Assembly (NCBI GenBank): GCA_024655945.1
Contig: JANLFK010000002.1
Coordinates: 62,001-126,000 of the forward strand
Origin: a candidate division KSB1 bacterium
GTDB lineage: Bacteria > Zhuqueibacterota > Zhuqueibacteria > JANLFK01 > Oleimicrobiaceae
Reading direction: 5' to 3'
Length of the DNA: 64,000 nt
This document shows, piece by piece, positions 28,503-50,311 of the stretch. The notes under the pieces are model-generated. The model was not told the DNA's origin. It ran no database searches and saw only the letters and a list, made by a program, of their open reading frames with translations. Each line of letters opens with the position of its first letter. Positions within the stretch are counted from its first letter, which is position 1. Position numbers and translations under genes: made by a program.

Positions 28503-29513
28503 TTAGAACTGGAATCTCAGGCTGAACCTGTGCGTGTTGTCGAACGTGGTGAACTGCGTGAATGCATAATCCAGCCACAGGTTCATGCCGGAGATGGGCA
28601 GCGCCAGGCCGGCCCCAAAGGATGCGCCTTCGTCGGTCTGTTTCAGCCGCGTCAGCTCATCCTGGAAACCGGAGTAGTTGAACTTGTACCCGGCACGCAG
28701 CGCCAGCTTGTCGTAGAGCGTCCATTCGCCGCCCACGAAGTACAGCTGCGGGCAGTCTTTCGGCTTGGTGAGGTCGACGAACGCCTTCAGCGCGGTGTTC
28801 TCCTCCTTCGCCACACTCATAGAAGCGCCGATGGCGAAGTACAACGGCAGCGAGGCCCCGATGGCGTAAAACTTTAGGTCGCTGCCCACGTTGTTGATGC
28901 GCGCGCCAAAGGTTAGGTCGCGAAAGCCCGTCTCGTACACGGCGCCAAAGTCGAACGCCCAGGCTTGGGCCGCCACGTTATCGATGCTCTCGCGGATGTA
29001 CTTGCCCGAAAGACCCATGCGGAAGCGGTCGGTGAACTGCTTGCTGTAGCCCAGCGTGACCGCCAGATCGTAGTAGTTGTACGTGTCATAGCGGCCAAGC
29101 CCTGGCTCTTCAGGCACCGGTTCGGTGTAGCCCGGGGGGGCCAGGTCGCGGTCTGCAGCAAGGTCCGACATGCCCATGTAGATGACGCCGAGGCCAAAGC
29201 TGCCCAGGTCGCCGAAGCCATGGGTCACGGCCAGCGCGGTGTGGTCGATGTCAATCAACCACTTGTTGTAGTTGAGCCCAACGAGCGTCTTCCCGGCATC
29301 GGTCTGGATACCCGCCGGGTTCCAGAAAATCTGGTTGGGGTCGCCGTAGATGGTGGTCGCCGCAGAACCCAGAGCCACCATCCGTGCGCCCACACCGATT
29401 TTCAGAAACGCGGCGCCGTCGATGCCCGGTTTCCTCAACTGCCCGGCGGCCGCCACAGAGGCCACCAGGAGCAGGAACACCAGAACGAGGCCTACGGTTC
29501 TTGACACCTTCAT
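28503..29513 (-). CDS. PorV/PorQ-family outer-membrane protein (module A)
   Basis: 336 residues with signal peptide 'VGLVLVFLLLVASVAAA'. 'AAFLKIGVGARMVALGSA' then 'YGDPNQIFWNPAGI' is the signature start of the PorV/PorQ family; the rest alternates as a 14-strand-type beta-barrel and ends in aromatic 'HRFSLRFQF'. PorV shuttles T9SS cargo to the attachment complex at the cell surface, while diverged relatives next to receptors have unknown roles. AAGGAG is 8 bases before the ATG. It is the last gene of the module, 44 bases after the sorted protein, and is followed by a strong terminator. A paralogue takes the same place in the second module at 44273. Confidence 0.85.
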   Translation of the reverse strand: MKVSRTVGLVLVFLLLVASVAAAGQLRKPGIDGAAFLKIGVGARMVALGSAATTIYGDPNQIFWNPAGIQTDAGKTLVGLNYNKWLIDIDHTALAVTHGFGDLGSFGLGVIYMGMSDLAADRDLAPPGYTEPVPEEPGLGRYDTYNYYDLAVTLGYSKQFTDRFRMGLSGKYIRESIDNVAAQAWAFDFGAVYETGFRDLTFGARINNVGSDLKFYAIGASLPLYFAIGASMSVAKEENTALKAFVDLTKPKDCPQLYFVGGEWTLYDKLALRAGYKFNYSGFQDELTRLKQTDEGASFGAGLALPISGMNLWLDYAFTQFTTFDNTHRFSLRFQF

Positions 29514-29557
29514 ATCTGTATCTCCTTCGGTTAGGGATTGTCAGGTCGCGACCACTA

Positions 29558-32092
29558 CTACCGGATGATGGCAAAGGTGCCGTGCTGCTGGCCACCTTTG
29601 TACTTGACCACCCAAATGTACAGGCCGCTTGCCACCTCGTTCCCATTTTGGGAATACATATCCCAGAAGTAGGTGCCGTTGGTAGCAACCGGCGCCGCGT
29701 AGTCGACCTCCTGCACCAGCATGCCGGCGAGGTCGTAAATCTGGATGGTGCAGCGCGAGGGCAGGTTGTAGAACATCACCTGGTGCTTGCCGCTGGCATC
29801 GTGGAATGCCACCCGCTTGTACGGGTTCGGCCGCACGCCGATCTTCGCCCCGCCCATCTCGATATCAGCCACAGTGGCCGTCGGAGATACAAGCACAAAG
29901 ACAGCGCCGAGTTTCTTCAGCCCCTCGATGTCGCTCTCCTTGGGGTAGTCGGAGGTCTTCCATGCCCACGGCCAGGTGTTCTCCCAGTAGCCACTCCGAC
30001 CGTTGATGTTAACCTTGCCGCTCTCCAACCAGCTCACGTTGTCCAGTCCCTGGTAGGCCGGCGGCACCGTCGCAGCAGCGCCCTCCTTGTAACTGGACAC
30101 GTAGTACCAATAGCTCTGGCCAGGAGCGGTGTAACTATCGTCCTCCCACGCATAGGGGTAGGTGGCAGCGTCGGTGTCGGTGTTCTTGTAGTTGGCGAAC
30201 TCAGACTTCGGCACTACCTTGACCAACGAATAGGGGCCCCAATAGTCGCCCTGCTGGGGTTTGAGATACTCGGTGTTGGTCATCAGCGGGTTGATCTCAT
30301 CCTTGCCAGGGTCGACTGCCGGGTCCATGGTCTTCCACCACGTTCCGTGCGTGGGGTAGAGCTTTTCGGTGGAGTTGTAGCGCGGCCAGGCGACGCATTT
30401 GTAGATCTTGATGCCGTCGCAGGCGCCCAACTTGCTCGGGTCCTGCCACTTGATGAGCGGTCTGACGTTCTTGGAGCCGCTCACCTTGATCTCCGGCACC
30501 GGCGGGCCAGAGGGTACGTCGTAGGAGCCGTCCGGCTTAATGGACTTGAACACCGCGCGCGCCATCTTCACCGTCTTGCGCAGGCCAAGAATGCGGAAGC
30601 CCGAACCACGGTAGAAGTAGAGCCTGATCCTCTCGCCCACTTCCATGGAGAAGGGGCCGATAGCGCAGATCGGGTCGCCATCGAACTGGTACTGGCTAAT
30701 CAGGCCTTCCTTAATAATGTTCGGCTCCATAGCCTGGCCACGCGGCGGGGCGTCAATGGGGTTAATCCCCAAGGGTTGACCAGTCACCGGGTCATTGACC
30801 ACGACCGGGGTCGCCTTCTCGCGCGCACCATCCGGATAGGTCCACTGCGACAGATCCTTTACGACAAAGGTCGTCGGGTCTCCAGCCGTACCTCCGGAGA
30901 AGATGGCCGGGTTAGGATTGAGGTCGAACTTGGCCCCATCGCCGCTCTTGCCACCATCCACGAAGAAGCAGCCCATGCTGGCAATGTGGCCCTTCTTGGG
31001 GGTACCGTCGAAGACGCCGCCCCAGCCAGGCTGGTTGGTGTGGAACCAGCCGCGCTGTACGCCCTCACCCACGGCCGGGACAATCTGGTTGCCGCTGGCG
31101 TCCTTGAACGCGAGGAACTTCTCCTCCCACTGCAAGGCGTTGGGGTTCCACTTCTTCGCGCCCAGCCAGCCGTAGCCGTTGTAGGCGTCAAAGTACTCGC
31201 CGAAATCCGTCACGGCCGGGTGGTCATTGGCACGCACCGTAGTGGAGCCGATGGCCTGGCAGTGAATGTCCCACGGGTGACCGTTCTCATCCGGGGTCAG
31301 GTCGATGATGCTGGCCCGATAGCGGTTGTTGTTCACATAGTAGGCGCGTCCGCCATCGTAGTAGATGTAGAAGTGGAAACACCCTGGCCAGTAGAAGAGG
31401 TTCAGAGCGTTGATGCGGTTGTTGGTCAACTCCACCACGCCGTCGGCATTGAGGTCAGTCTGGCCGGTATTGTACAGCTCGATCTCGATGATGTGAAAGT
31501 CGTCCAGATTGCCCCACGGCATGGTCCACGAATGAGCGGTCAGCTTCACATCTACGCCCAGGGTGGTTGGCCACGCGGAGGTCGCCCACGCGTGGGTGCG
31601 ATCCGCCGACAGGTAGCACCCGCCCACCGGGTCATGGTAATTGCGGAGCGGGTCCTTTGCCCCTGCCACGTTCGGCGTGTACTTCAGGTAGGCATAGTTC
31701 TCGCTCCCCGCGGGCCCGAGCGCACCTTGGATGGCAGCAAAGGCCGGGTCGGGGTTGTACTCCACCGCGTTGAGGCCATTGCTGAAGTCGACAGCCAGCC
31801 GCCCAGACATCCAGCTCCAGGGCGGGTTGCCGAACAGACCGCTGGTGATCAAGCGGTTGTTCTGGAAGATGCACCCCTGGGGGTGGCCGTAGCCAATGTT
31901 CTTCACATCGGTCTGGATGGCCAGTCGTGGCCAGGGGTAGTCGTAATTGGCGGGGATGTACGTGCACCACGTCTCTCCCGCGACAATTACCATGTTCTTC
32001 TGCGGTCCCTCCGCCCAGGCCGAGAGCTGGATCAGGGTTACCGCTGCTACCACCAGAAACAAGGTGGTAAAGAGTTTTGAGTGCCTTTGCAT
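29558..32092 (-). CDS. Large sorted surface protein partnered with a TonB receptor (module A)
   Basis: 844 residues from ATG 32092; a GAGGAGA ribosome site 8 bases upstream decides against the in-frame ATG at 32110, which would contain it. The signal peptide runs to about 'LSAWAEG', with no lipobox. A DLNADGVVE loop looks like a calcium site. Then come beta-domains with 'PFSMEVGERIRLYFYRG', a fibronectin-like segment starting 'RPLIKWQDPSK', and a C-terminal sorting/FlgD-like domain 'GVRPNPYKRVAF … FAIIR'. The order and motifs parallel the protein at 45246, so the two are paralogues. It lies between the TonB receptor and PorV, so it probably captures substrate outside the outer membrane, a SusD-like job done by an unrelated protein; this is inference. 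Confidence 0.7.
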   Translation of the reverse strand: MQRHSKLFTTLFLVVAAVTLIQLSAWAEGPQKNMVIVAGETWCTYIPANYDYPWPRLAIQTDVKNIGYGHPQGCIFQNNRLITSGLFGNPPWSWMSGRLAVDFSNGLNAVEYNPDPAFAAIQGALGPAGSENYAYLKYTPNVAGAKDPLRNYHDPVGGCYLSADRTHAWATSAWPTTLGVDVKLTAHSWTMPWGNLDDFHIIEIELYNTGQTDLNADGVVELTNNRINALNLFYWPGCFHFYIYYDGGRAYYVNNNRYRASIIDLTPDENGHPWDIHCQAIGSTTVRANDHPAVTDFGEYFDAYNGYGWLGAKKWNPNALQWEEKFLAFKDASGNQIVPAVGEGVQRGWFHTNQPGWGGVFDGTPKKGHIASMGCFFVDGGKSGDGAKFDLNPNPAIFSGGTAGDPTTFVVKDLSQWTYPDGAREKATPVVVNDPVTGQPLGINPIDAPPRGQAMEPNIIKEGLISQYQFDGDPICAIGPFSMEVGERIRLYFYRGSGFRILGLRKTVKMARAVFKSIKPDGSYDVPSGPPVPEIKVSGSKNVRPLIKWQDPSKLGACDGIKIYKCVAWPRYNSTEKLYPTHGTWWKTMDPAVDPGKDEINPLMTNTEYLKPQQGDYWGPYSLVKVVPKSEFANYKNTDTDAATYPYAWEDDSYTAPGQSYWYYVSSYKEGAAATVPPAYQGLDNVSWLESGKVNINGRSGYWENTWPWAWKTSDYPKESDIEGLKKLGAVFVLVSPTATVADIEMGGAKIGVRPNPYKRVAFHDASGKHQVMFYNLPSRCTIQIYDLAGMLVQEVDYAAPVATNGTYFWDMYSQNGNEVASGLYIWVVKYKGGQQHGTFAIIR

Positions 32093-32132
32093 GTGCCAGT
32101 CTCCTCTCAAATGCTCTGCGCAAACCTGCGGT

Positions 32133-35100
32133 TTAGAACCCTATCTCCAGACCGGCCCAGATCTGGCGCGCTGGCCCATAGAGTGGACGGCCCAGCCAGT
32201 CGAAAGGCACGTTCCAGTAGCCTTTCGGGTCACCTTCGTCACCGGTCTTGGGCTTGCGGTCCCGCCCCAACTCGAAGATCTGCTGGTCGATGTTCTCATA
32301 GAAGGGCGTGCGGTTGTAGGCCAGGATGTTCTCCTTGTTGGTGACGTTGTCCACCTGGACGAAAGGCCGGAAACGAATGCCTGCCAGCTTCCCTTCCCAG
32401 GTGAGCCGCAGGTTCAGCCAGTAGTTCCACGGGCCCTCACGCATCTTGGGGCTGACTGCGAACCACGGATCGAGGTCGATGTTCTCCGTGGGCAGGTACT
32501 TGAAGCCGCTCATGGCGTTGCCCACTGCTGACAGCTGGAAGTCGAGCGGCAGGTAGAACATCAACGTTGCGCCAAAGCGGTGGGTGCGGTCAAAGCCTCC
32601 TGCCAGCGGGTTCTCGGTCTCGCGCAGCACGATGTTGTCCTCGCGGTACGGGTAGTAGTCCGCCCACTTCAGCGGCAGCTGACCATAGTTCGCGCTGTCG
32701 GTCCTGGCGCTGAAAGCGGTCAACTGCGTCGGGTCGTTGCCCGTCCTGACCTGGGCCGCCTTGATGTAGGAGTAGGCATAGGTGACTCGCCCTGACCAGA
32801 AGCCGGTACGACGCTTCTCGATGGTCAGCTCGATGCCGCGCGAGTCGGCATGGCCCCAGGAGCTCCGGATGTAGAGTCCCTGACCCTTGTACGGCGTCAA
32901 TCCCCACAGCCGATTGCCATAGTTCTCCACGTCGCGGTAGTAGACCACCGCGTCCAAGGCGATGTCCAGAACCGGCGCCCACTGCAAGCCGATTTCGTAC
33001 GCCGTGGAGCGCATAGGCTCCTGGTCCACCCACACCGTGGTCATCGACGGAGAGGCCGAGTAGTTGGTGAAGTTGTAATCGGTATACAGCGAGGCAAAGT
33101 TCGGGTACTGGATGAACTTGCCAAAGGAGTAGTGCATCGCCATGCGATCAGAGATCGGGTGCGACACACCCAAGCGCGGGCTGAAGAACCACTTCCAACC
33201 CACCTTCCCGCCACGCACCGGGCGCAGTTCCCAGAGCGCGCCGGTCGCATCGGCAATGTAGTCCCAGGGGTGGAAATCGTTCACGAAGCGCCGCGTGTCG
33301 TTGTCATAGCCGTCCACCCGCGCGCCGACGTTGACGATCATACCCACGTACTCGATGCGGTCCTGCAGGTAGAAGCCGAACTCCTTCGGGTAGAACGTGT
33401 GCTTGTCCAGGTGGAAGCACTCCATCGGGTACTGGTGACCAGCGCCACCGAGCTCCGCTTGCTTGTTGTCGACATCCACGTAGTGGTAGCGGAACTGGAA
33501 TCCGGTCTTGATCTGGTGGTTGTAGGTGATCTGGCTGGTCAGGTCGCCCTTGATGGTGCTCACGTTCCGCGTGGTGCGGCTGTAGAGCGCTGCCGGGTAG
33601 CGCGGACGGAACAGGCCGCCAGTGGTCCAGAAATTGACCTTGTTCTCCATGTAGGTCTGGTCGATGGCACTGTAGAAAAAGGTGCGTCTGGGGTCCCTCG
33701 GCCCGAGCACAGCATCAGGGTTTTCGTTGAGGAAGTTGCCCACGTAGCCGTTGACCGTGGTCCAGTCGATGTAGGTGATGCCGGTGGCCGGATCGGTCTT
33801 GGTTACGCCGCCCACGTAGCGGAGGTACTCCTCCCGCGAGTCGAAGTCGATAAAGTCGCCCTTTTCGTCGATGTCGCAGTAGCCATCGCCGTTGTCATCC
33901 GGGTAGCCGAGCTCGCTGGTCTTATTGCTCTGGCTGATCTGGATCTCGTAGAACGTCTTTGGCGACAGCGTGTGGGTCCACTTGGCGTACGCCACCAAGC
34001 CCAGGTCCTTGTAGCGGGGCGCACCCTCCATGTAGTACAACCACTTCGGGTTGAACTTCCAGTTGACAAAGTTGAACAGCTTGCCGCCATCATCGACCTG
34101 GCCGTAGAGGGTCACGCGCATATCCTTGGTGAAATCATAGTGCAGCTTCAAGCTGCTGACGATGCGCTTGTCCAGGTCGAAGGGCATGGCGGAAGTGCGC
34201 AGGTTCTGGTAGCGCCCTGTCAAGAAGAAGCCGCCCTTACCACCGGTGAAAGGCAACGGTCCACTCAGATTGCCTTCAACCTCGTAGGAGCGGCCCAGGC
34301 CCACCGAGTCGTCGGGATCATAGTAGTACTTGTCCCGGCACAGCTGCTCGTTCCATGTGTACAGCTGCGCAGAACGCTGGTCCTTGATCTGCGACGAAGC
34401 AGCAAGCGTGTTCCGCTCGTCAAAGTAGCCAATCTGAAGAATTTTGTCTTGCGCGTCCTTCTTGCTGTCCTTCATGTAGTAAGGGTTGGTGCCAAAGTGC
34501 TCGATCTTGTCCAGAGGCGTGCCCCGCACGAAGATCTTGCCGCTGTAGTTTTGGCCACCAGACTTGGTGACCATGTTCACGATGCCAGCAGAAGCGGTGG
34601 GGTACTCAGCGGTAAAGGTGCCGGCGTAGACGTTCAGTTCCTGGATGGCGCTCGACAGCATCTCCGTCATGGCCGTCTCGCGCAGCTCGGAACGCCGGAA
34701 CGCCTGGTAGACGTGCCCAACATCCAGAGTGCCGAACGCGCCGGTGCCACCCGAGAAGTACGTGTCGGACACATCGACGCCATCCACCAAGTACCTGGTC
34801 TCGTACTTGCGGCCGCCGCGCACGTAGCCGCTGAAGGTGCTCGCTGCCGTCTCCACCAGGTCGCGGTAGCTGCCCACGGGCAAGCGGTGGTCCAGCTCCT
34901 GGGCTTCCATGGTGGTCTTGGACTGGGTGAGGGTCTTCTCCACCAAGGGCCGTTCGGCAACCACGGTGACCGCCTGGCCTTCGATGACGGTTGGGCTGAG
35001 CTGGAAATCGAGCTCAGTGGTCAGCCCAGTCACCGCGCGCACGCCGGTCTTGGTCACGGCCGTGTAGCCCATAAATGATGCCTTAACGGAATAGACGCCT

Positions 35101-35669: not shown

Positions 35670-37736
35670 TTACCTGGCGAGGAAGCGCTCTGCAAAGGTT
35701 GGCTGGCTCCCGGCCATCACCACGAAGACATCCAGGGGCACTACCTCGAACTCTGGCCCCAACTTGCTCAAGATATTCTTGACCCGCTTCACGTCGCTGG
35801 CCTCCCTGACGTGCATGAGCAAGAAGTACGGCCGCACTTTGTTGATGGTCGCCAGCTCCCGCAAGTCGGCGACCGCTTCTTCCTCTGGCTTTGTGGGTGA
35901 CAGGTAGTAGTCGTACGAGATGAGCGGCCTGCCGTTCTTGACCGCGAACGTGAATGATGGGGCATAACCGTTGAGAAAACCGATCACGTCAGGCATGCCC
36001 TGGTAGTAAGCCTCAACCACCTCCCTGGTCAGCTCCGTGTTTCCCTCGACGGTGGCTCCTTCCGAGTAGTCCATGATCTCGAAGACGCGCAGGTCAAGCT
36101 TCTCCATGAATTCCTTGGCCTTGCCGATGAGTCCAGGCAGAAGCTGCGCCGGGACCGCCTTCGGGTAGAGGTAGCCCGGGCCAGACAAACAGCCGATAAG
36201 ATAGTCATTGGGGGTTGCCGTGCGGTAGTAGTATTCCTGCATGGCGGGCTCCAGCCACAGCCGATTCATGATTACCTCCCAGGCGTAGGGGAGCTCGCCC
36301 CGACCTGGCCGGTGCCATGACCCAATCCCCATGCCGTCGGTCTGCACACAGGCAATGTAGACCTTCTTGCCCGGTTTGTAGCGCTTGCCCGGCACCACAT
36401 TGTGATTGTTCTTAAAGACGAAGCCAGGGGTCGGCGGCACTTGATGGCTGAAGCTCAGGTTTGGGATCGTGTGCAGCCCTTCCACCCGCAGGCCGTAGCT
36501 CGATGCCAACTTGACGTGGTCTCGCTCTTTGTCCTTGGCGTAGGAATGCCAGCCCATCACCATGGACGTGGGATTCATCTGGCTGAGCAGCTTGTTGGCG
36601 AGTGCGTATTCCTCGACGTCTTCTGGCTTGGTGGAAAGGTCGTTGAAGAAACAGCGGTTGTAGATTCCCCAATCGGCAACGCCGGGCTTCATGACGGGAC
36701 CCGCATCGCCTCCCATCCAGATGACGATGTCGCGGCTGCAGCGGTCCCAGTAGCGGTCGTAGGCCCACTGATAGATCTGGGCATCGTTCATGCCCACAAA
36801 CTTGCCGCGCAGGTCCGCTACCATCTTGAGGCCGCACTCTTCTGCCAGTGGGATAAAGTCCTCGCTCACCACCAGCGCCTTCTCCACGCCGGCGATGGTA
36901 AAGGCCACAATCAACGAGGTGCGCACCTGCAGGTCCCACACGACGTACCCGGCCAAGGCGTGCTTGAAGGTTTTCACCGCCTCAGGAACAGACTTGAGCT
37001 CGGTGAAAGTGAAGTAGCGCTTCTCTTGCACGAATTGGAAGAATGGCTTGACATAGTTGAAGGGCCATGTCTCTGGATACAGGAGGTAGAGCCTGGGACC
37101 GCTGCCATTGGCTAAGCCCTGCAGGCTGATGAGCAGCGCCTGCTCAGCAAGACCGTCCGCCACTTCCCAATTGTCCTTGAGGCGAAAGAAGAACGCTTCG
37201 CGCTTGCCGGCCTTTTTCAGCACATAGTGGAGCGGGCCAGAGGTGCGCGTTGACCGCGAAATCTCGTACACCAATATGTCACCGCCCTCGCGCAGTTCGT
37301 AGGTGTGCACACATGTCACCGGAGTTGGCCCCTGGGAGCCACGCACGCTAAAGCGCTCCTCGACCCTGAGCACCGTGCCGCCCTTGTCCCAGCGGGCCAC
37401 CAGCTGGCGTTCACCTCCCACCGGCATGGAAAGCCCCATGAACACATTGGTGGGAAACACCCGGTCCTTGATGGGAAGCTTGGTCACCGAACCATCGGTA
37501 CGGAGGTCGAGAGAATCCACAAAGCGACGGCTCGTGCCCCATGTCTGCACGAGCAGAATCCCGTCTTCCTTGGTCGTCGCGTCGATGGCTAAGGTGGCGT
37601 AGAGGTCGATTTCGGTGCTCACTTCGGGAAGAAGCTTCCAAGTACCGTTGAACTCCGGATTCCCCTGCGCCAAGAGAGTCCCCCCTGCTCCGACCAACGC
37701 CGCCACCAGGGCGAGCACAACGGCGATGTGTTTCAT
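35670..37736 (-). CDS. GxGYxYP-family putative glycoside hydrolase, secreted
   Basis: 688 residues with a Sec signal peptide ('MKHIAVVLALVAALVGAGG'). After a ~175-residue N-terminal beta-domain the protein contains the name-giving motif of the GxGYxYP putative glycoside hydrolase family, G519-P-G521-Y522-L-Y524-P525 in 'CLSGPGYLYPKAVP'. Other conserved-looking parts are 'QTDGMGIGSWHRPGRGELPY' and 'VIGFLNGYAPSF'. The family's enzymatic activity was inferred from fold prediction and gene context in gut bacteria. GGAGG is 5 bases plus a short spacer before the ATG. It lies 103 bases after the GH38 homologue and runs toward the next operon's promoter. Confidence 0.82.
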   Translation of the reverse strand: MKHIAVVLALVAALVGAGGTLLAQGNPEFNGTWKLLPEVSTEIDLYATLAIDATTKEDGILLVQTWGTSRRFVDSLDLRTDGSVTKLPIKDRVFPTNVFMGLSMPVGGERQLVARWDKGGTVLRVEERFSVRGSQGPTPVTCVHTYELREGGDILVYEISRSTRTSGPLHYVLKKAGKREAFFFRLKDNWEVADGLAEQALLISLQGLANGSGPRLYLLYPETWPFNYVKPFFQFVQEKRYFTFTELKSVPEAVKTFKHALAGYVVWDLQVRTSLIVAFTIAGVEKALVVSEDFIPLAEECGLKMVADLRGKFVGMNDAQIYQWAYDRYWDRCSRDIVIWMGGDAGPVMKPGVADWGIYNRCFFNDLSTKPEDVEEYALANKLLSQMNPTSMVMGWHSYAKDKERDHVKLASSYGLRVEGLHTIPNLSFSHQVPPTPGFVFKNNHNVVPGKRYKPGKKVYIACVQTDGMGIGSWHRPGRGELPYAWEVIMNRLWLEPAMQEYYYRTATPNDYLIGCLSGPGYLYPKAVPAQLLPGLIGKAKEFMEKLDLRVFEIMDYSEGATVEGNTELTREVVEAYYQGMPDVIGFLNGYAPSFTFAVKNGRPLISYDYYLSPTKPEEEAVADLRELATINKVRPYFLLMHVREASDVKRVKNILSKLGPEFEVVPLDVFVVMAGSQPTFAERFLAR

Positions 37737-37839: not shown

Positions 37840-40617
37840 TCAGTCCAACCAGACCTCAACGCTCACGATCTTGTTCTTGCTGGCCACCACCTCCACACTT
37901 CTTCCGGCCACCTCGGCTGGGCCTATGGGCTTCTCATTCAGCTTCACTAGCTGCGCCTTGCGAACTGGCCGCCAGAAAGTGATTGTCCCTTTCACCTCCT
38001 CTTCGGTGGGATTGAACACCCTGACGATGAGCCCGTCTGTGCGCGATGACCTCTTCACCGCCGAGAGCACGAGCGTGGCCGGCTGGATATCGAGGAAGCT
38101 GAGAGTCGGGGGCAACGTGCCAGTGCTGCGCCCGCACTGCGCGAGGCGAAGTTTGAGGTTGAAACGATTGGCCTGCTCGTACACGCCGGCTTGCTCCCAT
38201 GTGCCTGCATAGGGAAAGATCGCGTAGTCGAAGGTGAATGGTCGCAGGCATTGGCACATCACCTGGGTCTCGTCGGTCGCCACATTCTCCGGGTCCGCGC
38301 CGATGATGGGGAAGCGGTAGGTGCGCACCAAGGTGAGGGCAATGCTGCGCTGTTCGTCCTCGAAAACGGCATACTCGGGCAATCCGATGTTGAGGATCGC
38401 CAGCCCGTGTCCCTCTCCCTGCACGCCGCAGAACATGTATTGCGGGTAGTACGGCAGCATCGGCTCCTTCCAGGTGGAAGTGTCCGGGAGGTGGATGTCC
38501 CGCTCCGTCACGTCAAAGTGCGTCTCTGAGTAGGACCTTCGCGCGGCGCCATAGCCCGATGGGAACATGGCCAGCAGCTTGTGGTCGCGCACATGGTTGG
38601 TGAGCTCGGTTCGCACCTCCAGGCAAGGCGAGCCCTTCTTCAATGTCACATACGAGACAATCTCAAACGGCACTCTTTCTGGATTGCGCCGACTTCCATC
38701 GGCAAGGGCGTCTTTGGGCAGCATCATCGTCACCTTGACGCGATACTGGACCATGAGCGGGCCGTCAAGCACCTTGCCTACCTCGGCCTGCGCTCCAATG
38801 CTGGTGATGACTTCGTCGAGGTCGGCCGACCGCTGCGTGGCGTGGTCACCCACATCGGAAAAATCCTGAAAATAGTGCAAGCCCTGGTAGGTCGTGCCGC
38901 TGGTCTTGCACAGGAGGTCAATCCGCCCATCGTCGGCAATCTCGGCGCGCAGGTGTTCATTCTCCAACACATTCGCGGCAGGCGACAGGCTGCCGTAGTT
39001 CAGCTTGCGCCCAGGTTGTGGCTTGATGACGAACGACCGGTAGCCCACGCCAGGGACCTCACTCAGCGCAATGGCGCAATGCACCCGGCGTGCCTTGTAC
39101 GGGATGGGAAACTCGTACGGGTTCTTGACGATGGGGCCAAAAGGGTAGGAACGGATGAACTGCACGGGAAGCTGAGCGCCTGACTCGTCCTCCACAGTGA
39201 ACCATCTGGCTGCAGTCTCCTCGGGGAGGTCGATCACTGCGGTTACCACTTCGGAGCGCCGGTATTGCGTCGGATTGAAGGCCACAAGGCAGATGGCGTC
39301 TCCGGGCAGACGGGCGTTGTCAATCTTGGCGACGATGTGCGCCAGTGCCCGCCTGGTAACGTTGTCGGCGAGATGGCGGACCTGCCGATTGCCGTACTCC
39401 ACGTCCTCGTGCACCAGGTCCACACTGCACCCCGCAATGCTGTCGTGGGACTGGTTGGCCAGGTGATATTTCCAGGCCAGGCGCAGCAGGCCTTCCGGGT
39501 ACTCCATGCCCAAGAGACTAGCAAGGGCTGCCCAAGTGTCGGCGTTCTTCTGCAACTTGAGCTCGCAGGTCCGGTTCTGTTGCTTCAGGTACATCCTGGC
39601 GCACAGCATGCCTGGAAAGAGATTCTGCCAGAGCCCGTCCACCATGGTGTAGCGAAACTCGCTACGCATGACCTTAAGGTCTTTGGCCCGCGCCTTGACT
39701 GCCTGCACATAGTCGTAAAACGAGCTGTGGATGTAGGTATCGCCCGTGTTGAGTTTGTTGGCCTCAGCGATAATTTCGGGCGTGCGCGGATAGGGATTGA
39801 CCTGGTCCATGCCGTCCAAGTAGAGAAGCTGGTCGCAGGTGGCGCCTTTGATCGCGTGACCCTTTATCTCCGCGAGCGCCCTTGGCAAGTTCTCCAGGTA
39901 CAGCTTGTCCAGGTGTTTTCCTTCCAGAAGCCAGTAGTCAAAGCCGCACAGCTCCTCATCGCAGGGATGAAACGGCAGTTGCCCCTCGCGCCAGTGGTAA
40001 TCCCATTCAAACGGCCATTTGTTCAGGGCCACTGGACGATAGACATGCACATACCAGTTGGCGCGCCCGTACGGGTTCACCGCGCGCATGCCCATGATCC
40101 TGCTGCCATCTGGCGCTTCCCAAATGAACTCGTGCTTTGTGATGCGGTCATTGTTCCCCCTGTAGAAGAACATGTGGTCGAGGTCGAACCCTAAGTAGAT
40201 TTGGGGCATTTGCGAGGATTGACCAAAGGAGAACGGGCTGTAGCCTGACCACTTCTGCCCTTCCCACTCTTCAGTGATGAGGGTACCCATGAGCAGATTG
40301 CGCACAATGGACTCGCCGCTGATTTCCGGCGTGTCCGGGAGCGTGTACCATGGCCCAATCTGGATGCGTCCTTCAGCAACCAGGCGCCGCAGCACCGGCT
40401 CGTTTTCCGGCTTGATGGCCAGATGGTCTTCCAGAGGAATAGTCTGGGAATCCAGCAGAAAGTACTTATACTCGGGATTGGTTTCCAGAAGCTTGATGAG
40501 CGCATCGAACATGTCCACCAGAAGCATGCGGAACTCCTGGAACGGGTAGCGCCATTCGCGGTCCCAATGGGTGTGGGATACGACGTGGATGGTGTAAGGG
40601 CCATGTACGTCTTGCAT
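37840..40617 (-). CDS. GH38-family homologue lacking the catalytic Asp
   Basis: 925 residues with complete GH38 architecture: catalytic-type alpha/beta domain (about 8-300), helical bundle, and beta-sandwiches to the end. The first ligands are present, H17 and D19 in 'SHTHWDREW'. The nucleophile motif, normally P-D-x-F-G-H, reads P128-F129-S130-F131-G132-Q133, so the Asp that is both nucleophile and zinc ligand is Phe and the following His is Gln. The codon is TTC and the flanking 'SSQMPQIYLGF' aligns well, so this is not a frameshift. It may be a binding or regulatory protein or use another residue. It is preceded by a good promoter (40657-40685) and AAGGAG. Confidence 0.8.
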   Translation of the reverse strand: MQDVHGPYTIHVVSHTHWDREWRYPFQEFRMLLVDMFDALIKLLETNPEYKYFLLDSQTIPLEDHLAIKPENEPVLRRLVAEGRIQIGPWYTLPDTPEISGESIVRNLLMGTLITEEWEGQKWSGYSPFSFGQSSQMPQIYLGFDLDHMFFYRGNNDRITKHEFIWEAPDGSRIMGMRAVNPYGRANWYVHVYRPVALNKWPFEWDYHWREGQLPFHPCDEELCGFDYWLLEGKHLDKLYLENLPRALAEIKGHAIKGATCDQLLYLDGMDQVNPYPRTPEIIAEANKLNTGDTYIHSSFYDYVQAVKARAKDLKVMRSEFRYTMVDGLWQNLFPGMLCARMYLKQQNRTCELKLQKNADTWAALASLLGMEYPEGLLRLAWKYHLANQSHDSIAGCSVDLVHEDVEYGNRQVRHLADNVTRRALAHIVAKIDNARLPGDAICLVAFNPTQYRRSEVVTAVIDLPEETAARWFTVEDESGAQLPVQFIRSYPFGPIVKNPYEFPIPYKARRVHCAIALSEVPGVGYRSFVIKPQPGRKLNYGSLSPAANVLENEHLRAEIADDGRIDLLCKTSGTTYQGLHYFQDFSDVGDHATQRSADLDEVITSIGAQAEVGKVLDGPLMVQYRVKVTMMLPKDALADGSRRNPERVPFEIVSYVTLKKGSPCLEVRTELTNHVRDHKLLAMFPSGYGAARRSYSETHFDVTERDIHLPDTSTWKEPMLPYYPQYMFCGVQGEGHGLAILNIGLPEYAVFEDEQRSIALTLVRTYRFPIIGADPENVATDETQVMCQCLRPFTFDYAIFPYAGTWEQAGVYEQANRFNLKLRLAQCGRSTGTLPPTLSFLDIQPATLVLSAVKRSSRTDGLIVRVFNPTEEEVKGTITFWRPVRKAQLVKLNEKPIGPAEVAGRSVEVVASKNKIVSVEVWLD

Positions 40618-43491: not shown

Positions 43492-43504
43492 CGCTCAGTC
43501 TCCC

Positions 43505-44257
43505 TCAGTACACAAACACCAATGCACACGCCAGTTCCGCTACGCTTGTCACAGGGAAACGCTCGTACTGGCCCCCACGTTTCGGGAACACCGTGCTGTA
43601 CCTTCCGCTTAGGCGAAAGTGCAGGAAGCGTTGCACCATGAGCTCGGCGCCCACCTCAAAGGTCGCCGCGTAGACTACGCCCTTACGCACCTCAGCGTGG
43701 TTGTAATAGTCGTAGGCAAAGACATAGCCAAGCTCGGGGAATTCTTTCTGCCAGACCTCGTGCAAGCGCAGCGTGCGCTCATAGAACCAAGGTCCGGCGC
43801 CGGTGGTCAGGCACAGGGCAGCCCTGCTGGTCTGCGGCCAGCGCAGAGCAACGAACGGCACCAGTTGTCTCATGTACAGGTGTTGATCTGGCGTCAAAGT
43901 GGCCCGATATGACTTGTCCCTGGACTGCAAGTCACGCACATAGTTGCCGTAGAATCGCTGCCAGAACGCCCAGTTCCACTGCTCGACCGCTCTGTCCTGC
44001 TCGATCGTCAGGTCGCAATAGCCAACCCGCACCCCCACGGCCACGAGGCGCGACAGGCGCAGTGAGGCTGCTCCTCCTGCTCCCCAACCGGTCGCCTGGC
44101 GCAGATGCTGGTCTTTCTTCAGCCCGAGCCCCTGACCGGAGGAGGCCCAGGCCGCAAGCGATTCCAGACGCGGCCTCTGACCAGAGGCCACAGGACAGGT
44201 CGCGCCCAGAACTATGGCGACCCACGAGGTCACGTGGAGGACGAATTTCCACTTCAC
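43505..44257 (-). CDS. Outer-membrane beta-barrel protein
   Basis: 250 residues from GTG 44257, 8 bases from AGGAAG. Signal peptide 'KFVLHVTSWVAIVLGATCPVASG'. Strand-like segments 'LVAVGVRVGYCDLTI', 'LVPFVALRW', 'AALCLTTGAGPWFYERTL', 'AATFEVGAELMVQRFLHFRLSGRYSTVF' and a C-terminal 'LACALVFVY' indicate a barrel. It belongs to no family I recognise. It lies between PorV (16 bases) and the second small barrel. Confidence 0.6.
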   Translation of the reverse strand: MKWKFVLHVTSWVAIVLGATCPVASGQRPRLESLAAWASSGQGLGLKKDQHLRQATGWGAGGAASLRLSRLVAVGVRVGYCDLTIEQDRAVEQWNWAFWQRFYGNYVRDLQSRDKSYRATLTPDQHLYMRQLVPFVALRWPQTSRAALCLTTGAGPWFYERTLRLHEVWQKEFPELGYVFAYDYYNHAEVRKGVVYAATFEVGAELMVQRFLHFRLSGRYSTVFPKRGGQYERFPVTSVAELACALVFVY

Positions 44258-44272
44258 AGCGACACTTCCTCA

Positions 44273-45241
44273 TCAAAACTCGGCGCAGAAACTCATGCGC
44301 AGCACCGACTGCAGGCGACGGTAGTCAGTGTGGGCAAGGTCAAAGCCAACGAGCCCACGCCCAGTGCTCTTCTTGAAGCCGCACCCTATGGTGAGGCCAT
44401 CCTCGTCGTAGTTGAACTTGTAACCAACGCGCAGCGCCACCACATTGGCCAACCAGCATTCTGCGCCCACGTGCAGGCGCTCGCTGTAGTCGCTCGGATG
44501 CAGCGCATCGGCGGCCAGAGTCAGACGATATGGGCTGCTCTGCCCACCCAGCAGTTCTATAGCCGCACCGAGCCGAAAGACCATAGGCATCTTGAACGAG
44601 TCGCCGATGTAGCGGCTGTCCACCCCAAAGTTCTGCACATAGCCGCCAATGCGAAAAGACCGGAACCCAGTGGTGTAGACCATCCCCAAGTCGACGAGCA
44701 CGTTGTCTGAGGTGTAGACCGCGATGCGCTCCCGGACGTAGCGAAGGGTAAGACCGTAAGCAAACCAGGCCGTTGCCTGCTGGGCAAAGGAGAGCCCAAT
44801 GGCCGCCGCATCTGCCGTGTAGGTGCCGCGCACAATATAAGCGCCACCCGGGTTGTCAACGTCCGCGTTGAGCGTCTCCACCATCTCACCCAGGTCCAGC
44901 CGGTTGATGCTGACGCCGCACACCCCCATGCGCCGCGGAAGCCTTAGGGCAATAGAGCAGGCCTGGTGGCTTGTCTCGGCAAGATAGGAGGCATACGACA
45001 CGCTCAGCGCACGGCTACCCGCAAGGTGAGCGAGAAGCGCTGGGTTGACGAACAGCGCCTCGGGCCCTCCATCCAGCAGCGCCACACCCACCTCGCCCAT
45101 AGCCGCCGCACGCGCGGTGACTGGGATCTCCAGGAAGGTGTAGCCCGCCGTGCCAACCTTGCGGAACTGCCCCTTTCCCGGGGTGGCCATGCAGGCCAGC
45201 AGCACGAAGACAAAGACCAACCGTGACACCGCGCGTGCCAT
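44273..45241 (-). CDS. PorV/PorQ-family outer-membrane protein (module B)
   Basis: 322 residues, signal peptide 'LVFVFVLLACMATPGKG'. 'GYTFLEIPVTARAAAMGEVGVALLDGGPEALFVNPALL' is the PorV/PorQ N-terminal signature, the barrel runs through 'LRVGYKFNYDEDGLTIGCGF' and the end is 'VLRMSFCAEF'. Its segment 'RVGYKFNYDEDGL' resembles 'RAGYKFNYSGFQDEL' of the module A paralogue at 28503. A GGTGAAGG site precedes the ATG, which lies 4 bases after the stop of the sorted protein. The likely role is export or surface assembly of the sorted partner. Confidence 0.82.
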   Translation of the reverse strand: MARAVSRLVFVFVLLACMATPGKGQFRKVGTAGYTFLEIPVTARAAAMGEVGVALLDGGPEALFVNPALLAHLAGSRALSVSYASYLAETSHQACSIALRLPRRMGVCGVSINRLDLGEMVETLNADVDNPGGAYIVRGTYTADAAAIGLSFAQQATAWFAYGLTLRYVRERIAVYTSDNVLVDLGMVYTTGFRSFRIGGYVQNFGVDSRYIGDSFKMPMVFRLGAAIELLGGQSSPYRLTLAADALHPSDYSERLHVGAECWLANVVALRVGYKFNYDEDGLTIGCGFKKSTGRGLVGFDLAHTDYRRLQSVLRMSFCAEF

Positions 45242-45245
45242 GCCT

Positions 45246-47372
45246 TCACCTCACAATGCAAAACTTGCCGATGCGCGTAGCCCCTCTCGTGGCCGGCGCA
45301 TGGGAGGTGATATGGTAAATGTAGAACCCACTCTCGGCAAATTGGCCAAAATCGGTCACCTGATCCCACTGCGCAATCCCCGTGTCTTCGGTGTGCTCGA
45401 TCCTTGCCACCAGGTCGCCGCGAATCGTGTAGATGCGAATGGTGCACGGGCTGGGGATATTCATGAACGATATCACATCCTGGGCACCGGGAGTAATGAA
45501 ACCGGACCGCATGACGAATGGGTTAGGCACCACGAGTATCTGGTCGAGCGTCGTATTCACCGGCGAGAAGGTGGCCACAAATGGGGAAACCGTATGGTTC
45601 GGGTAGTATGAGCTCTCCAGACTGGGGACACGGTTGCTGTTTGTCTCCGGAAACACGGCTGCGGGATCAGGCGGCCAATGGTCATGCCCGGTATCGAAGG
45701 CCGAAACCGCATAGTAGTAGCCGAAGCCCACCACGACCCCAGTGTCGACGAACGTGTAAATGTGTGCAACCGGGTCGAAGAGGCTGGGGTCCCTGGCTGC
45801 CACCTCGGCGATCTGCTGCCATGGACCTATGGGCAGATAGTCGGAGCGATAGATGCGATAGCCTGCCAGGTCGTAGGCCTCTGCACCGGAGTAGTCAGAA
45901 TCGGGCAGGTACTGGCCGGCATCATCCCAGCGGATGACGTTTCCCACTCTGGCCCCGGTCAGTCGCGAAAGCTCAATCCTGTCCGGTGCCGCTGGTGGAT
46001 CCGGCACGTTGTAGTGATGGTCGAAGTTGAACTGTGCCCGCTGAGCCGTGGCATTGAGGTCGGCCAAACTCCCCATGGCAATGTCCTGCTCTGTAACGTT
46101 GGCAGCAAACGCTATCTCGGAACGCACACTGCCGATCACCTCGGCCATCACCACACGCAGCGAGTCTCCAGGGCGCAAATCCCAAGGGCCGAGGGATACC
46201 ATGGTCCACATGCGCGCCTTGCCCCAGCGCTCGTCAGCCAGACCTTGCGGAAAGAGGATGGCCTGATAGGCGTTGCGCAGATCGCGCATGGCATTGTACC
46301 ATTGTTCGTTCGTCTCCAGGCCAGTGAACGGGAAGGCATGGGCAGGGTCGCTCACCGACCAGCCAACCTGGTTGATAGTATTTGCCTGACCGCGCTTGTC
46401 CGGCGAGACGTAGAGAAACTTTATCCCTGCGAAGGCAGGCGCCAACCACTCCTTGCCGCTGCGCGGCCCACCGCGGCCGTAGAGGTACGGGTCAAACTTC
46501 TCATTGCCGGCGGCCTGCGTGTAGTCGTCCGCCCAGCCGTAGACCATCCGTTGGCGTGCATCATACAAGAAGCGGTTGTTCAAGGCACCCGGTGGCAGCT
46601 GGGGAAAGAGCATAGTCCAACCCCGCGCATTGATGGCGAACGCGTAGGTGAAAAGAAGATACAGGTCCTGCAGAGTGGAATCCTGGGCCAAGATGCGGTA
46701 CACTTCGGGTGAGGCCACCCCGGGGTCGAAGATGTGCGGTTCGCGGGCAATGTTGGTGATGACATAGTCGATGATGATGTACTTTTCGTCCTTCGCCGAG
46801 CCACTCCAGCAACGGACAGTGCGCTTCACGCGCACCGGCAAGAAGCGCGGCGGGCGATAGGGGAAGCGGTACTGCGGATTGAATTCCCAGGCGGTGTCCA
46901 CCACCTCTTCGCCCTCGCCCGGATCCGTTCGCAACCAGTGGTTCTCCCCATTTGGCCAACGCAGACCATGGCGGAGCAACAAGTAAGGACTGTCGGTCGT
47001 GGAGAGCCCCACCGAGGTGGCAAACATGGCCCAGTCGGCAACCCCCCAGACGCTGTCCTGGGTGGAGGCGCGCAACGCTCCTGCCCAAAATCCGCCGCCC
47101 ACGTGGTGGCTGGTGCCCCCGCCCACCTGTTGCGGAATCAGCTCAGGGTCAAAGCCGGGCCAATCCATGCCATAGCCCTTGCGGGCCCAATTCTGGAAGA
47201 CTGGTCCCATCTTGGCCACATTCACCGTCTCCCACAACTGCCCACGCGTCAGCGAAATGGCAGTGGCCTCCACCTGCGCGGTGCTCCTCGTAGCGGAAAG
47301 CATACACGTCGCAGCACACGCTATCAAGAGCCGGCGGCGGACCGCAATTCTTTGTCGCAGCCGAGAGAGCAT
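45246..47372 (-). CDS. Large sorted surface protein partnered with a TonB receptor (module B)
   Basis: 708 residues. An Arg-rich N-region and 'LLIACAATCMLSATRSTAQ' form a signal peptide. The body has 'KYIIIDYVITNIAREPH', 'GPWDLRPGDSLRVVMAEVIG', a fibronectin-like 'NVIRWDDAGQYLP … AYDLAGYRIYRSD', then the C-terminal domain 'ILVVPNPFVMRSGF', 'ISFMNIPSPCTIRIYTIRGD' and a final 'RIGKFCIVR'. Each of these has a counterpart in the 29558 protein, including the ending in I-(V/I)-R. It starts 2 bases after the TonB receptor stop. I infer an extracellular substrate-capturing or receptor-lid protein; the binding specificity is unknown. Confidence 0.7.
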   Translation of the reverse strand: MLSRLRQRIAVRRRLLIACAATCMLSATRSTAQVEATAISLTRGQLWETVNVAKMGPVFQNWARKGYGMDWPGFDPELIPQQVGGGTSHHVGGGFWAGALRASTQDSVWGVADWAMFATSVGLSTTDSPYLLLRHGLRWPNGENHWLRTDPGEGEEVVDTAWEFNPQYRFPYRPPRFLPVRVKRTVRCWSGSAKDEKYIIIDYVITNIAREPHIFDPGVASPEVYRILAQDSTLQDLYLLFTYAFAINARGWTMLFPQLPPGALNNRFLYDARQRMVYGWADDYTQAAGNEKFDPYLYGRGGPRSGKEWLAPAFAGIKFLYVSPDKRGQANTINQVGWSVSDPAHAFPFTGLETNEQWYNAMRDLRNAYQAILFPQGLADERWGKARMWTMVSLGPWDLRPGDSLRVVMAEVIGSVRSEIAFAANVTEQDIAMGSLADLNATAQRAQFNFDHHYNVPDPPAAPDRIELSRLTGARVGNVIRWDDAGQYLPDSDYSGAEAYDLAGYRIYRSDYLPIGPWQQIAEVAARDPSLFDPVAHIYTFVDTGVVVGFGYYYAVSAFDTGHDHWPPDPAAVFPETNSNRVPSLESSYYPNHTVSPFVATFSPVNTTLDQILVVPNPFVMRSGFITPGAQDVISFMNIPSPCTIRIYTIRGDLVARIEHTEDTGIAQWDQVTDFGQFAESGFYIYHITSHAPATRGATRIGKFCIVR

Positions 47373-47374
47373 AA

Positions 47375-50311
47375 TCAGAATCCCAATCCAACCGTGAAAT
47401 AGACCTCCCGCGGCGCGTTGCGATAGGCCCGGAAGTAATTGAGCTTGTAGATCTTCGCCTGCGGGTCGTTCGGGTTATCGCTCGTGGGCGGTGTGTCCCT
47501 GCTCACGCCGTACTCCACCCAGTTGCGGAGCTCTTCCCCGGCAAGTGGCGTAAGCCAGCGATTATTGAACAGGTTCTCAATGCGCACCGAGAGGCGAGGT
47601 TGCAGCGTGCCGAGGGCGACCCGCACCGAGATACCCAAATCGGTCTTGGCCTCCAGCGGGTAGCGCCTATTGTTGACCACGTCGGTAAACTCATCGTAGC
47701 TGGTCACGTAAGTGAATGGCGATCCACTGCGTGCCTGGTATATCATGGTGAACACCAGGTCCTTGAGCGGTTCACCACCCAGCAGTTCTCGCCACAGGTG
47801 ACCGGGCACCGTGTAGGAAACCAATGCGCGAAATGAGTGAGTTCGGTCCTCTTCGGCGAGAAAGTCGTTGGCGCTGCGCCGCTCCACCACGCTTCGCGGG
47901 TCATTGGGGTCCTGGTAGATGTCGATGGCACCGTAGGCTCCTTGGGACGTGCGGGCAAAGGCGTAACTCAAGCGATATTTCCAGTCCCCCGGGGCTACCT
48001 TTTCCAGGGCCACTTCGATGCCGCGCGAGGCGCCGTAGCCATTGTTCTCATAGGTGAGGTAATAGGGATTCTGGGGCGCCTCCTGCTGCGAACCGGTGGG
48101 TGAGTGCACGCGGGCACTCACCGTCTGGCTCACGCGGTCATTGTAGTAGGCAGCCAGATCCACGCGATGGGTGCCGCCGAGGCTTTGCTGCAATCCCACT
48201 TCATAGCTGATGGTCTTTTTGAATCCGAGGTCGGCATTGCCGTACATGCGCCATCCCTGCCATGTGTTCCTGGAGAGCGCATGCCGGAAGAGCGGCATGG
48301 AGTGGAAGTGGCCATACTGCAGACGGAAGGCGGTGTGCTCCCCTACCGGGAACGAGAGCCCGAAACGAGGGGCAACGGCAAGGTGACTCTCAGGGCGCCG
48401 TGTCCGCGGGTCGCCCACATCGCCCACGTACGGGCCCCCTCCTTGGCCTGTTCCCTGGTAGAACGGTCGAAAACGGTCTAGGGGCACGGGTATGTTCATG
48501 TTGAAGGCGTCGAAACGCAACCCGGCGTTGACCACCATGCCTTGGAACTCCATCTTGTCCTGCACATACGTGGCAACGTATCGCGGATAGGCGTGATAGT
48601 ACTCGGCAAAGCCCGAGTAGGCGACAAAGGCATTGATACGCGCTCCGGACTCGCCCGCGTAGCGTGTGTCCCAATACTGTCCGCGAACGCCACATTTCAC
48701 TTGGTGTCGTGCGTTCACCTGACTGGTCAAGTCCGCGCTCAGGTTCCAGACATCTGTTTGCGCATCGAGCGCATAGAGGGAAGTAAACTCGTAGACGATG
48801 CGCCGGAAATCTTCGTCCCACGGGCCGGCAGGAACCAACCTCGGGTCAGTCGAGGTGATAATCGGCAGGTTCCGCTCGATGTAGCGCTCACGCTGATGCC
48901 ACGCCGTCAGCTCGAAAAAGGTGCGTGGGCTGAAGACCTTTGTCCAGGTGAGCGTCTGCGTGGTGGTGATTTCGTCTTTTGGGCTTTCCAAGACCAGGCA
49001 GTACTTCCAGGTGGGGTATTGACCGATCACCGAGGCCCAGCGCACATCCTCCGAACCCGACCAGACCGCGCCGTGATGTGCCTGATACTGGCCCATGAGC
49101 TTGAGCTTATCGGCACTGCCCGCCCGCCAGCTCAGATTCAGGACGTAGTTTTGATAGACCTGCACTCGTTCAACGCTGGGGATGCGCAGGGGTGCGCGCC
49201 GGTATTCGCCGGACAGATAGAAGCGCAAACGGTCGCCTCCCCCAAGAGGGCCACCGACCCCGAACATGTAGCGCTGATAGACCAGTCTGCGATAGTCGTA
49301 CACACCCAGCGGGTTCGAGGAGTTGTTTGGCCCGGGGCTATGGTTAGCCACCCAGCGGTCGTAGTAGAACGTCCTCAGCGAATCGTCCGAGATGCCCGGC
49401 GCGTTCTTGTCCCGCCACTCCTGCCACTTGGCGAACGTGCCCCAGCGCTGCCATTCGATTGTCTCTGGCCCGTACAGATAGGGGCCAAAGTGGTATTTGC
49501 CGGGCGGGCGGAGCTCGACCCGAAACTCGCCATGAAAGCGCTCCTCGCCCTCTTTGGTCACCACCTTGACCACCCCGGATTGGGCGTTTCCATATTCCGC
49601 GCTAAAGCCGCCGGAGATGATTTCCATCTGTTTCACGCCCAGTGGGTTAAAGTCGTATTTCCAGCTTGTGTTGGATTTTTCTCCGTAGAGGTTGTAACCT
49701 GGAACGCCGGTGTTCGAGGAGATCTGCTCCACGCCGTTGACCTGGAATTGCAGCTCAAATGCGCCGCCGCCGCGGATGGAAAAAGTGCCGTTGGGGTTCC
49801 GCGTCACTCCGGCATCCAGCTCCAGGACACGGCGCAGCCCCTCCACCGGCGCGGTCTCGATTTCCCGCGCCTCCATCACCTTTGCCGTGGCGGTCAGGTC
49901 ACGCACCACTGCCGGCCGACTTGCCTCCACCACCAGAGGGGCCATCTCCAGCACAGTCGCCTCCAGGGAGAAATCTACGGTGCTGGTCCGGTCCACCACC
50001 ACCGTCACGCCCCGCACCACCATGCTGCGGTAGCCAATCATGCGGGCTGCCACCGTGTAAGTGCCCGGGGGCACGTTGAGGATGTAATACTCCCCGTCTC
50101 TGCCGGTTGCCGCCCCGAGCGTGGTCCCCTGGATGACCACGTTGGCCCCAGGCAGGCCCTGCTTTGTCTCGGCGTCAATGACCTTCCCCGCGATCTTTCC
50201 CTTTGGCACCTGGGCCAAGGTCTGGGCCTGCCACACCCACAAGATGCCAAACGCTCCTGCGGCAGTCGCCACTCTGCGCAAGGCACGGGTGATTTTCTTG
50301 AACGCCTTCAT
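47375..50311 (-). CDS. TonB-dependent outer-membrane receptor with carboxypeptidase-regulatory-like domain (module B)
   Basis: 978 residues. Signal region, then a regulatory-like domain 'GKIAGKVIDAETKQGLPGAN' to about residue 120, plug ('DLTATAKVMEAREIETAPVE', 'FQVNGVEQISSNTG', 'ISGGFSAEYGNAQSGVVKVVTK') and a barrel ending 'EVYFTVGLGF'. The plug and first domain are the same type as in the 32133 receptor. It overlaps the GHL10-golvesin gene by 4 bases (ATGA), so surface hydrolase and receptor are translationally coupled. It would import products released by that hydrolase. Confidence 0.88.
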   Translation of the reverse strand: MKAFKKITRALRRVATAAGAFGILWVWQAQTLAQVPKGKIAGKVIDAETKQGLPGANVVIQGTTLGAATGRDGEYYILNVPPGTYTVAARMIGYRSMVVRGVTVVVDRTSTVDFSLEATVLEMAPLVVEASRPAVVRDLTATAKVMEAREIETAPVEGLRRVLELDAGVTRNPNGTFSIRGGGAFELQFQVNGVEQISSNTGVPGYNLYGEKSNTSWKYDFNPLGVKQMEIISGGFSAEYGNAQSGVVKVVTKEGEERFHGEFRVELRPPGKYHFGPYLYGPETIEWQRWGTFAKWQEWRDKNAPGISDDSLRTFYYDRWVANHSPGPNNSSNPLGVYDYRRLVYQRYMFGVGGPLGGGDRLRFYLSGEYRRAPLRIPSVERVQVYQNYVLNLSWRAGSADKLKLMGQYQAHHGAVWSGSEDVRWASVIGQYPTWKYCLVLESPKDEITTTQTLTWTKVFSPRTFFELTAWHQRERYIERNLPIITSTDPRLVPAGPWDEDFRRIVYEFTSLYALDAQTDVWNLSADLTSQVNARHQVKCGVRGQYWDTRYAGESGARINAFVAYSGFAEYYHAYPRYVATYVQDKMEFQGMVVNAGLRFDAFNMNIPVPLDRFRPFYQGTGQGGGPYVGDVGDPRTRRPESHLAVAPRFGLSFPVGEHTAFRLQYGHFHSMPLFRHALSRNTWQGWRMYGNADLGFKKTISYEVGLQQSLGGTHRVDLAAYYNDRVSQTVSARVHSPTGSQQEAPQNPYYLTYENNGYGASRGIEVALEKVAPGDWKYRLSYAFARTSQGAYGAIDIYQDPNDPRSVVERRSANDFLAEEDRTHSFRALVSYTVPGHLWRELLGGEPLKDLVFTMIYQARSGSPFTYVTSYDEFTDVVNNRRYPLEAKTDLGISVRVALGTLQPRLSVRIENLFNNRWLTPLAGEELRNWVEYGVSRDTPPTSDNPNDPQAKIYKLNYFRAYRNAPREVYFTVGLGF

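Follow-up and report, generated by a model that had tools for sequence, protein, structure and literature searches.

A recurrent gene trio of TonB receptor, type IX-sorted protein and PorV paralogue, a probable glycan importer, in a KSB1 bacterium and across several phyla

The SusCD systems provide the logic with which we compare partnered import through the outer membrane (PMC7782687). In the type IX secretion system (T9SS), type B sorting domains are served by cognate PorP/SprF shuttles, whose genes lie directly downstream and which possibly anchor the sorted proteins (PMC12618676, PMC9143113), and in the type XI secretion system (T11SS) the TonB receptor and surface co-receptor TbpA/TbpB are encoded together with Slam (PMC8406197). 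Here, we describe a trio of genes encoding, in order, a TonB-dependent receptor, a T9SS-sorted protein (the middle protein) and a PorV/PorQ-family outer-membrane protein. It occurs twice, as modules A and B, in a 64,000-nucleotide stretch (the window; C2:62001-126000, contig JANLFK010000002.1) of the 3.94 Mb, 97.7% complete genome of a candidate division KSB1 bacterium (GCA_024655945.1). The trio is a many-copy module found across several bacterial phyla, and we found no earlier description of it in the open library searched, which holds published papers, few of them from subscription journals. We think it likely that the trio is a glycan importer whose T9SS-sorted surface partner relies on a dedicated PorV paralogue for delivery and perhaps for anchoring.

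A preliminary description of the window, made from the sequence alone, had read the two trios as paralogous modules that look like a stand-in for SusCD and proposed a search for the same trio in other genomes, where it turned out to recur very strongly. A scan of 84,980 species genomes seeded with a pair of trio PorVs, with results biased to one branch, yielded 80 loci from Calditrichota/KSB1, Ignavibacteriota, Neomarinimicrobiota, Delongbacteria, Zixibacteria, WOR-3, Balneolaceae and the cultured Roseithermus sacchariphilus, a distribution that includes Rhodothermales/Balneolaceae; among named genomes, the closest relatives were records of Calditrichota and candidate division KSB1. Receptor, family protein and PorV stood in this order, with few exceptions, where the contig was long enough. 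We tested the branch of module B separately, anchoring the search on its type of middle protein without the sorting domain. This family was present in 56 of the 59 genomes of the phylum, at up to 23 copies each. A PorV gene lay directly downstream at 30/30 best-hit loci (29 from other genomes), and a TonB receptor directly upstream at 28/28 with enough DNA, the two others ending at a contig edge. When nearly all copies in two further genomes were included, both neighbours stood in trio order in 30 of 39 cases and the receptor lay upstream in 34. An apparent fusion of receptor and middle-protein genes (G012 contig 181, L198) was an artefact: two separate reading frames are bridged by a stretch of N, and the signal peptide of the middle protein is still in place.

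The trio is also repeated within the genome itself. We fetched the DNA around nearly all PorV-family matches, of which there are 37 (28 above cut-off), and called genes with a codon model. These matches do not correspond to 37 modules, as about 15 lie elsewhere (canonical PorV, PorQ-like, PorV2-like beside PorU paralogues, and composites). There are 20 trios, each with a receptor followed by one or two sorted proteins and a PorV on the same strand, mostly less than 120 bp apart. Thus, the two window trios are real paralogous modules but no special pair. Without their sorting domains, 20 of the 22 sorted proteins still fall into one similarity cluster; the outliers are the module A middle protein, which matches both family profiles weakly with colinear landmarks, and an extra sorted protein in a module that also holds a proper family member. 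All 24 receptors scoring above 700 bits on a trio-receptor profile have a family partner within three genes, the independent part of this count being only the four receptors beyond the 20 from which the profile was built. Around those four, gene order differs or PorV is missing, and the family partner is present. About ten other TonB receptors with a CarboxypepD_reg domain score 52-292 bits on the profile, and none has a partner of its own. By our estimate a single random adjacency has a chance below 1% for about 24 receptors among 3,000-3,500 genes, placing the observed adjacency far beyond chance.

One further middle-family gene (L184:1709-4234, on C7) has a frame that ends inside the sorting domain, with PorV and receptor genes coming next, and is probably a frameshifted or decayed copy. 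Some modules contain predicted lipoproteins (L173:7385-8575, L177:8486-9997, L183:8107-8853 and L184:5550-6317), two of which are alike (248 and 255 aa); these are possibly extra surface glycan-binding proteins.

The middle proteins form one unnamed family, with a predicted architecture of a supersandwich domain, a fibronectin type III-like (Fn3-like) domain and a type IX sorting domain. Both window members carry a Sec signal peptide and a C-terminal immunoglobulin-like sorting domain, as T9SS cargo should. Their likeness, pointed out in the preliminary description, is visible by BLAST only in the sorting domain (the last ~115 residues, 32%); over the rest, common descent emerges only through family profiles. 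No Pfam family covers the N-terminal part. AlphaFold2 modelling of the module B protein before its sorting domain, with an alignment of 52 sequences, gave a predicted local distance difference test score (pLDDT) of 78 and a predicted template modelling score (pTM) of 0.86, and the full-length protein gave a mediocre model (67 and 0.66). The predicted order is a beta-sandwich, a long helix, the Fn3-like domain, which a PDB profile search also recovered, and the sorting domain. Nearly all Foldseek matches with E<0.001 were to glycoside hydrolase (GH) family GH94 and GH161 phosphorylases, GH116, dextran dextrinase, cyclic glucan synthase and polysaccharide lyase family PL17, in regions that we take to be supersandwich domains. 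The model thus suggests a carbohydrate-type domain without a catalytic barrel, like the non-catalytic N-domain of GH94 or GH116.

The C-terminal ends of the middle proteins set them apart from other T9SS cargo. The sorting ends noted in the preliminary description, PNPY...CTIQIYD...FAIIR in module A and PNPF...CTIRIYT...FCIVR in module B, score 78 and 82 bits on a sorting-domain profile and resemble FlgD_ig/PorZ/PorU (FlgD_ig E=1.3e-4 over the sorting domain in module A). They lie below the cut-off of the named Por_Secre_tail models (TIGR04183) and were recognised via relatives in the genome. A cysteine motif, C-x-[IVL]-x-[IVL]-[YFA], is found in 22/24 middle-protein sorting domains of this genome versus 0/30 others, and in other genomes in 94/123 middle proteins versus 2/106 others, those two seemingly fragments of middle genes. 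Conversely, the motif NPFN[PA] occurs in other genomes in 0/123 middle proteins versus 95/106 other sorting domains. In a tree, the middle-protein domains, including that of module A, form one set (Shimodaira-Hasegawa-like approximate likelihood ratio test (SH-aLRT) support 100), and the single "other" row within it is a middle protein truncated where the fetched stretch ends. Judged by motif and tree, these domains make up a subclass of their own. The cysteine of the CTI motif (for example, in window 45246-45560) is nearly invariant, being replaced mainly in some Ignavibacteria-type orthologues.

The genome encodes a T9SS translocon and sortase (SprA, 153 bits; PorU, 891 bits), as well as near-canonical shuttle genes separate from the trios, one PorV-like (239 bits, cut-off 250) and one PorQ-like (198 bits, cut-off 220). 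Besides the main PorU, there are two partial PorU-like paralogues (G000 C1:271315-273480 and C5:84359-86563), each adjoining a PorV2-like gene (C1:268284 and C5:88544), the C5 pair about 7 kb from SprA; these neighbours may be a separate sortase/shuttle pair.

The PorV/PorQ identity first proposed for the third genes holds, since both score well above the cut-off of 90 bits for the family model NF033709 (Table 1). Both also fall below the 250-bit cut-off of the PorV equivalog NF033710, at 75 bits for module A and 67 for module B, and they are orthologues of neither PorV nor PorQ. In a tree, the trio PorVs group together (SH-aLRT 94), separate from canonical PorV and from PorQ-like and PorV2-like proteins, with one long-branch composite inside. 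The closest solved structure to their profile is PorV from the SprA complex (4e-33). The idea of a dedicated PorV gains weight because the sorting-signal subclass and the PorV clade are both separate and because PorP/SprF provide an experimental precedent. Two composite frames of 1031 and 602 aa (L055:13603-16698 on C4 and L054:13808-15616 on C14) also contain a PorV-family domain, and each follows a gene with a sorting domain.

In the branch found by the PorV-seeded scan, 53 loci extend 4.5 kb or more beyond the trio on its downstream side, and in 35 of them the trio is followed by an ATP-binding cassette (ABC) importer with a sugar-type binding protein and permeases; LacI lies upstream in 16 loci. 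The binding protein is similar to those for arabino-oligosaccharides and maltose. One KSB1 trio operon includes a protein with a carbohydrate-binding module (CBM), CBM4_9, and an ordinary sorting domain, along with a GH2 mannosidase-like enzyme, and Roseithermus has a GH130 phosphorylase near its trio. We infer that sugar import by the trios is the most economical reading.

Our proposal is that the trio imports nutrients, most likely oligosaccharides, across the outer membrane, with the receptor as its TonB-driven channel. The middle protein would cross the inner membrane via its Sec signal and the outer membrane via the T9SS, and would hold its sugar-binding-type supersandwich domain over the receptor as a capture partner or lid. 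The PorV paralogue encoded next to it would recognise the special sorting-domain subclass, take the middle protein from SprA and either hand it to the receptor or keep it beside the receptor. In one branch, the sugar would then move on to the periplasmic binding protein and ABC importer encoded beside the trio. We infer surface location, contacts, substrate binding and anchoring by PorV. The idea of a capture partner gains because high-scoring receptors are always paired with the sorted family, because the predicted fold is carbohydrate-associated, and because an ABC sugar importer succeeds the trios in one branch. More tentatively, the trio could be a third kind of partnered TonB importer across much of the Fibrobacterota-Chlorobiota-Bacteroidota (FCB) superphylum, in which some 20 dedicated PorVs and a private sorting signal provide each receptor with a matching lid that is no lipoprotein and captures sugars, with PorV as the permanent anchor of a three-part complex.

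Several observations weigh against this proposal. The Foldseek matches have low TM-scores (about 0.3 of the query), which makes the fold a topology lead and no proof of sugar binding. Some modules have no adjacent PorV (C16, C4) or a different order, and the module A middle protein is a weak member of its family. The ABC and LacI context belongs to the sister branch and is not adjacent to modules A and B, and type A domains of F. johnsoniae all share one PorV (PMC12618676). In addition, mirror-tree partial correlations lose their specificity at equal alignment length. The three genes show strongly correlated evolutionary distances, as expected for genes inherited together. A first mirror-tree analysis gave an apparent pairing of receptor with N-domain and of PorV with sorting domain, and two further genomes agreed on receptor and N-domain, but the difference vanished at equal numbers of alignment columns and we dropped it as evidence of contact. 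In 3/3 genomes, the N-domain does agree more closely with the receptor barrel than with the plug (+0.23, +0.09, +0.09), unlike PorV and the sorting domain, which have no such preference; this is no more than suggestive.

The failure of equal-length mirror trees to single out a receptor/middle pair would fit another explanation, that the middle protein is ordinary T9SS cargo (an adhesin or surface binder) whose gene shares a nutrient operon with that of the receptor, with PorV as its shuttle and no stable complex with the receptor. Trio operons do also encode ordinary cargo, CBM or GH proteins whose sorting domains are generic. However, such cargo changes between loci, whereas the middle family is constant, accompanying every receptor of its class, even in the four reordered modules, and no other receptors. 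We therefore consider the ordinary-cargo explanation unlikely.

Much less probable still is that the receptor acts in export and helps to secrete or release the middle protein, a role of the kind proposed in Myxococcus for Oar and PopC. Trio receptors do carry the CarboxypepD_reg extension, and Oar-type TonB transporters can, according to work cited in PMC8406197, export a protein; but the cargo here has a T9SS sorting domain in a genome with SprA and PorU, and trios are followed by ABC sugar importers and preceded by LacI. A trio importing lipids or hydrocarbons, with the PorV paralogue as a FadL-like channel for hydrophobic substrates, is similarly improbable: the PorV profile does match FadL-family TodX (2.8e-5) and the module A PorV weakly matches Toluene_X, but PorV from the SprA complex is a far closer structure, the neighbouring genes are sugar genes, and pairing with a T9SS-sorted protein suits a shuttle.

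The order, strand and coordinates of both window trios are as originally described (Table 1). Intergenic gaps are 40 and 44 bp in module A and 2 and 4 bp in module B, and a TTG at 32110 is probably not the start of the module A middle gene. An Rfam search of the window gave no match.

Table 1. Positions of the two trios and of neighbouring carbohydrate-related genes in the window.
Feature	Coordinates	Strand	Domains and scores
Module A TonB-dependent receptor, 1065 aa	32133..35330	-	CarboxypepD_reg + plug + barrel; PF13715 E=6.7e-19, weak Plug
Module A T9SS-sorted surface protein (predicted), divergent family member	29558..32092	-	sorting domain ~residues 738-844
Module A PorV/PorQ-family outer-membrane protein, presumed dedicated shuttle/anchor	28503..29513	-	NF033709 197 bits
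Module B TonB-dependent receptor, 978 aa	47375..50311	-	PF13715 1e-20, Plug 4.1e-9
Module B T9SS-sorted surface protein (predicted), 708 aa	45246..47372	-	predicted supersandwich ~90-455, Fn3-like ~465-560, sorting domain ~610-708
Module B PorV/PorQ-family outer-membrane protein	44273..45241	-	NF033709 178 bits; inside trio PorV clade
GxGYxYP putative glycoside hydrolase, directly upstream of module A	35670..37736	-	PF14323 E=2.7e-50
GH38 alpha-mannosidase-like enzyme near module A	37840..40617	-	second copy 22479-24989; PF01074 1.5e-30 and 3.5e-55
GHL10 + Golvesin_C protein with ordinary T9SS sorting domain, directly upstream of module B	50308..52839	-	PF02638 7e-35, PF25275 8e-37, PF18962 4e-6

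Upstream of module B lie three consecutive proteins with ordinary sorting domains (window 50308-54239 and 54479-60070), among them the GHL10/Golvesin_C protein of Table 1 and one of 1863 residues, followed by a ROK regulator (60303-61568). Directly after the module B PorV gene is a 250-residue signal-peptide protein (43505-44257) with no convincing family match.

The absence of SusD from the window extends to the whole genome, which has no match to the Pfam models PF07980, PF14322 and PF12771. Across the phylum, PF07980 is absent from 37 of the 59 genomes; the other 22 carry one to five copies, and nearly all of these also carry the trio middle family. SusD is likewise present in the Roseithermus and Balneolaceae genomes with the trio. 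This coexistence rules out a strict replacement of SusD. The original interpretation is thus supported in part: the trio does recur, but calling it a SusCD replacement is too strict. Because SusD coexists with it in some genomes, we call the trio an alternative to SusCD, and it is the commoner one in the phylum.

If our reading is right, the trio would account for glycan uptake in large parts of the FCB superphylum that have few or no SusD proteins, and for the abundance of PorV-family genes there. It would link T9SS sorting and TonB-dependent nutrient uptake as fields, and a private sorting subclass with many PorV paralogues would stand as a direct exception to the single PorV described for type A domains (PMC12618676). 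The trio can also serve as a search profile for loci of glycan uptake that would escape predictors of polysaccharide utilisation loci built on SusCD.

How, then, does the trio compare with known systems? Like SusCD, it has a TonB receptor with a CarboxypepD_reg extension, present on both window receptors, and an obligate genetic partner predicted at the surface, with many paralogues per genome in carbohydrate gene neighbourhoods. It differs in that the partner is T9SS-sorted, has another predicted fold and no homology to SusD, and, unlike a SusD/RagB-type lipoprotein, has a signal peptide without a convincing lipobox in both window cases. The unit also includes a PorV paralogue, and its receptors are far below the cut-off of the SusC/RagA model TIGR04056 (51 and 67 bits for A and B, cut-off 368). 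Trio PorVs share subfamily NF033709 and their closest solved structure with canonical PorV/PorQ, but form a clade of their own below the equivalog cut-offs, with about 20 copies linked to receptors. As with the type B C-terminal domains and PorP/SprF of F. johnsoniae and P. gingivalis, the gene for a sorted protein directly precedes that for an outer-membrane barrel shuttle, and cognate recognition and anchoring are likely; here, however, the sorting domain resembles type A, the shuttle belongs to the PorV family, and a TonB receptor is added upstream. TbpA/TbpB and Slam likewise combine a TonB receptor, a surface co-receptor and a dedicated outer-membrane secretion protein, but the proteins are unrelated, their substrates are metal or heme rather than the inferred sugar, and Slam secretes by itself, whereas the trio PorV paralogue would act downstream of SprA. 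The best reading is that the trio is SusCD-like in logic and not homologous to SusD. It lies outside SusCD and shares no parts with Slam systems, and what is new is a T9SS-sorted partner in a partnered TonB importer.

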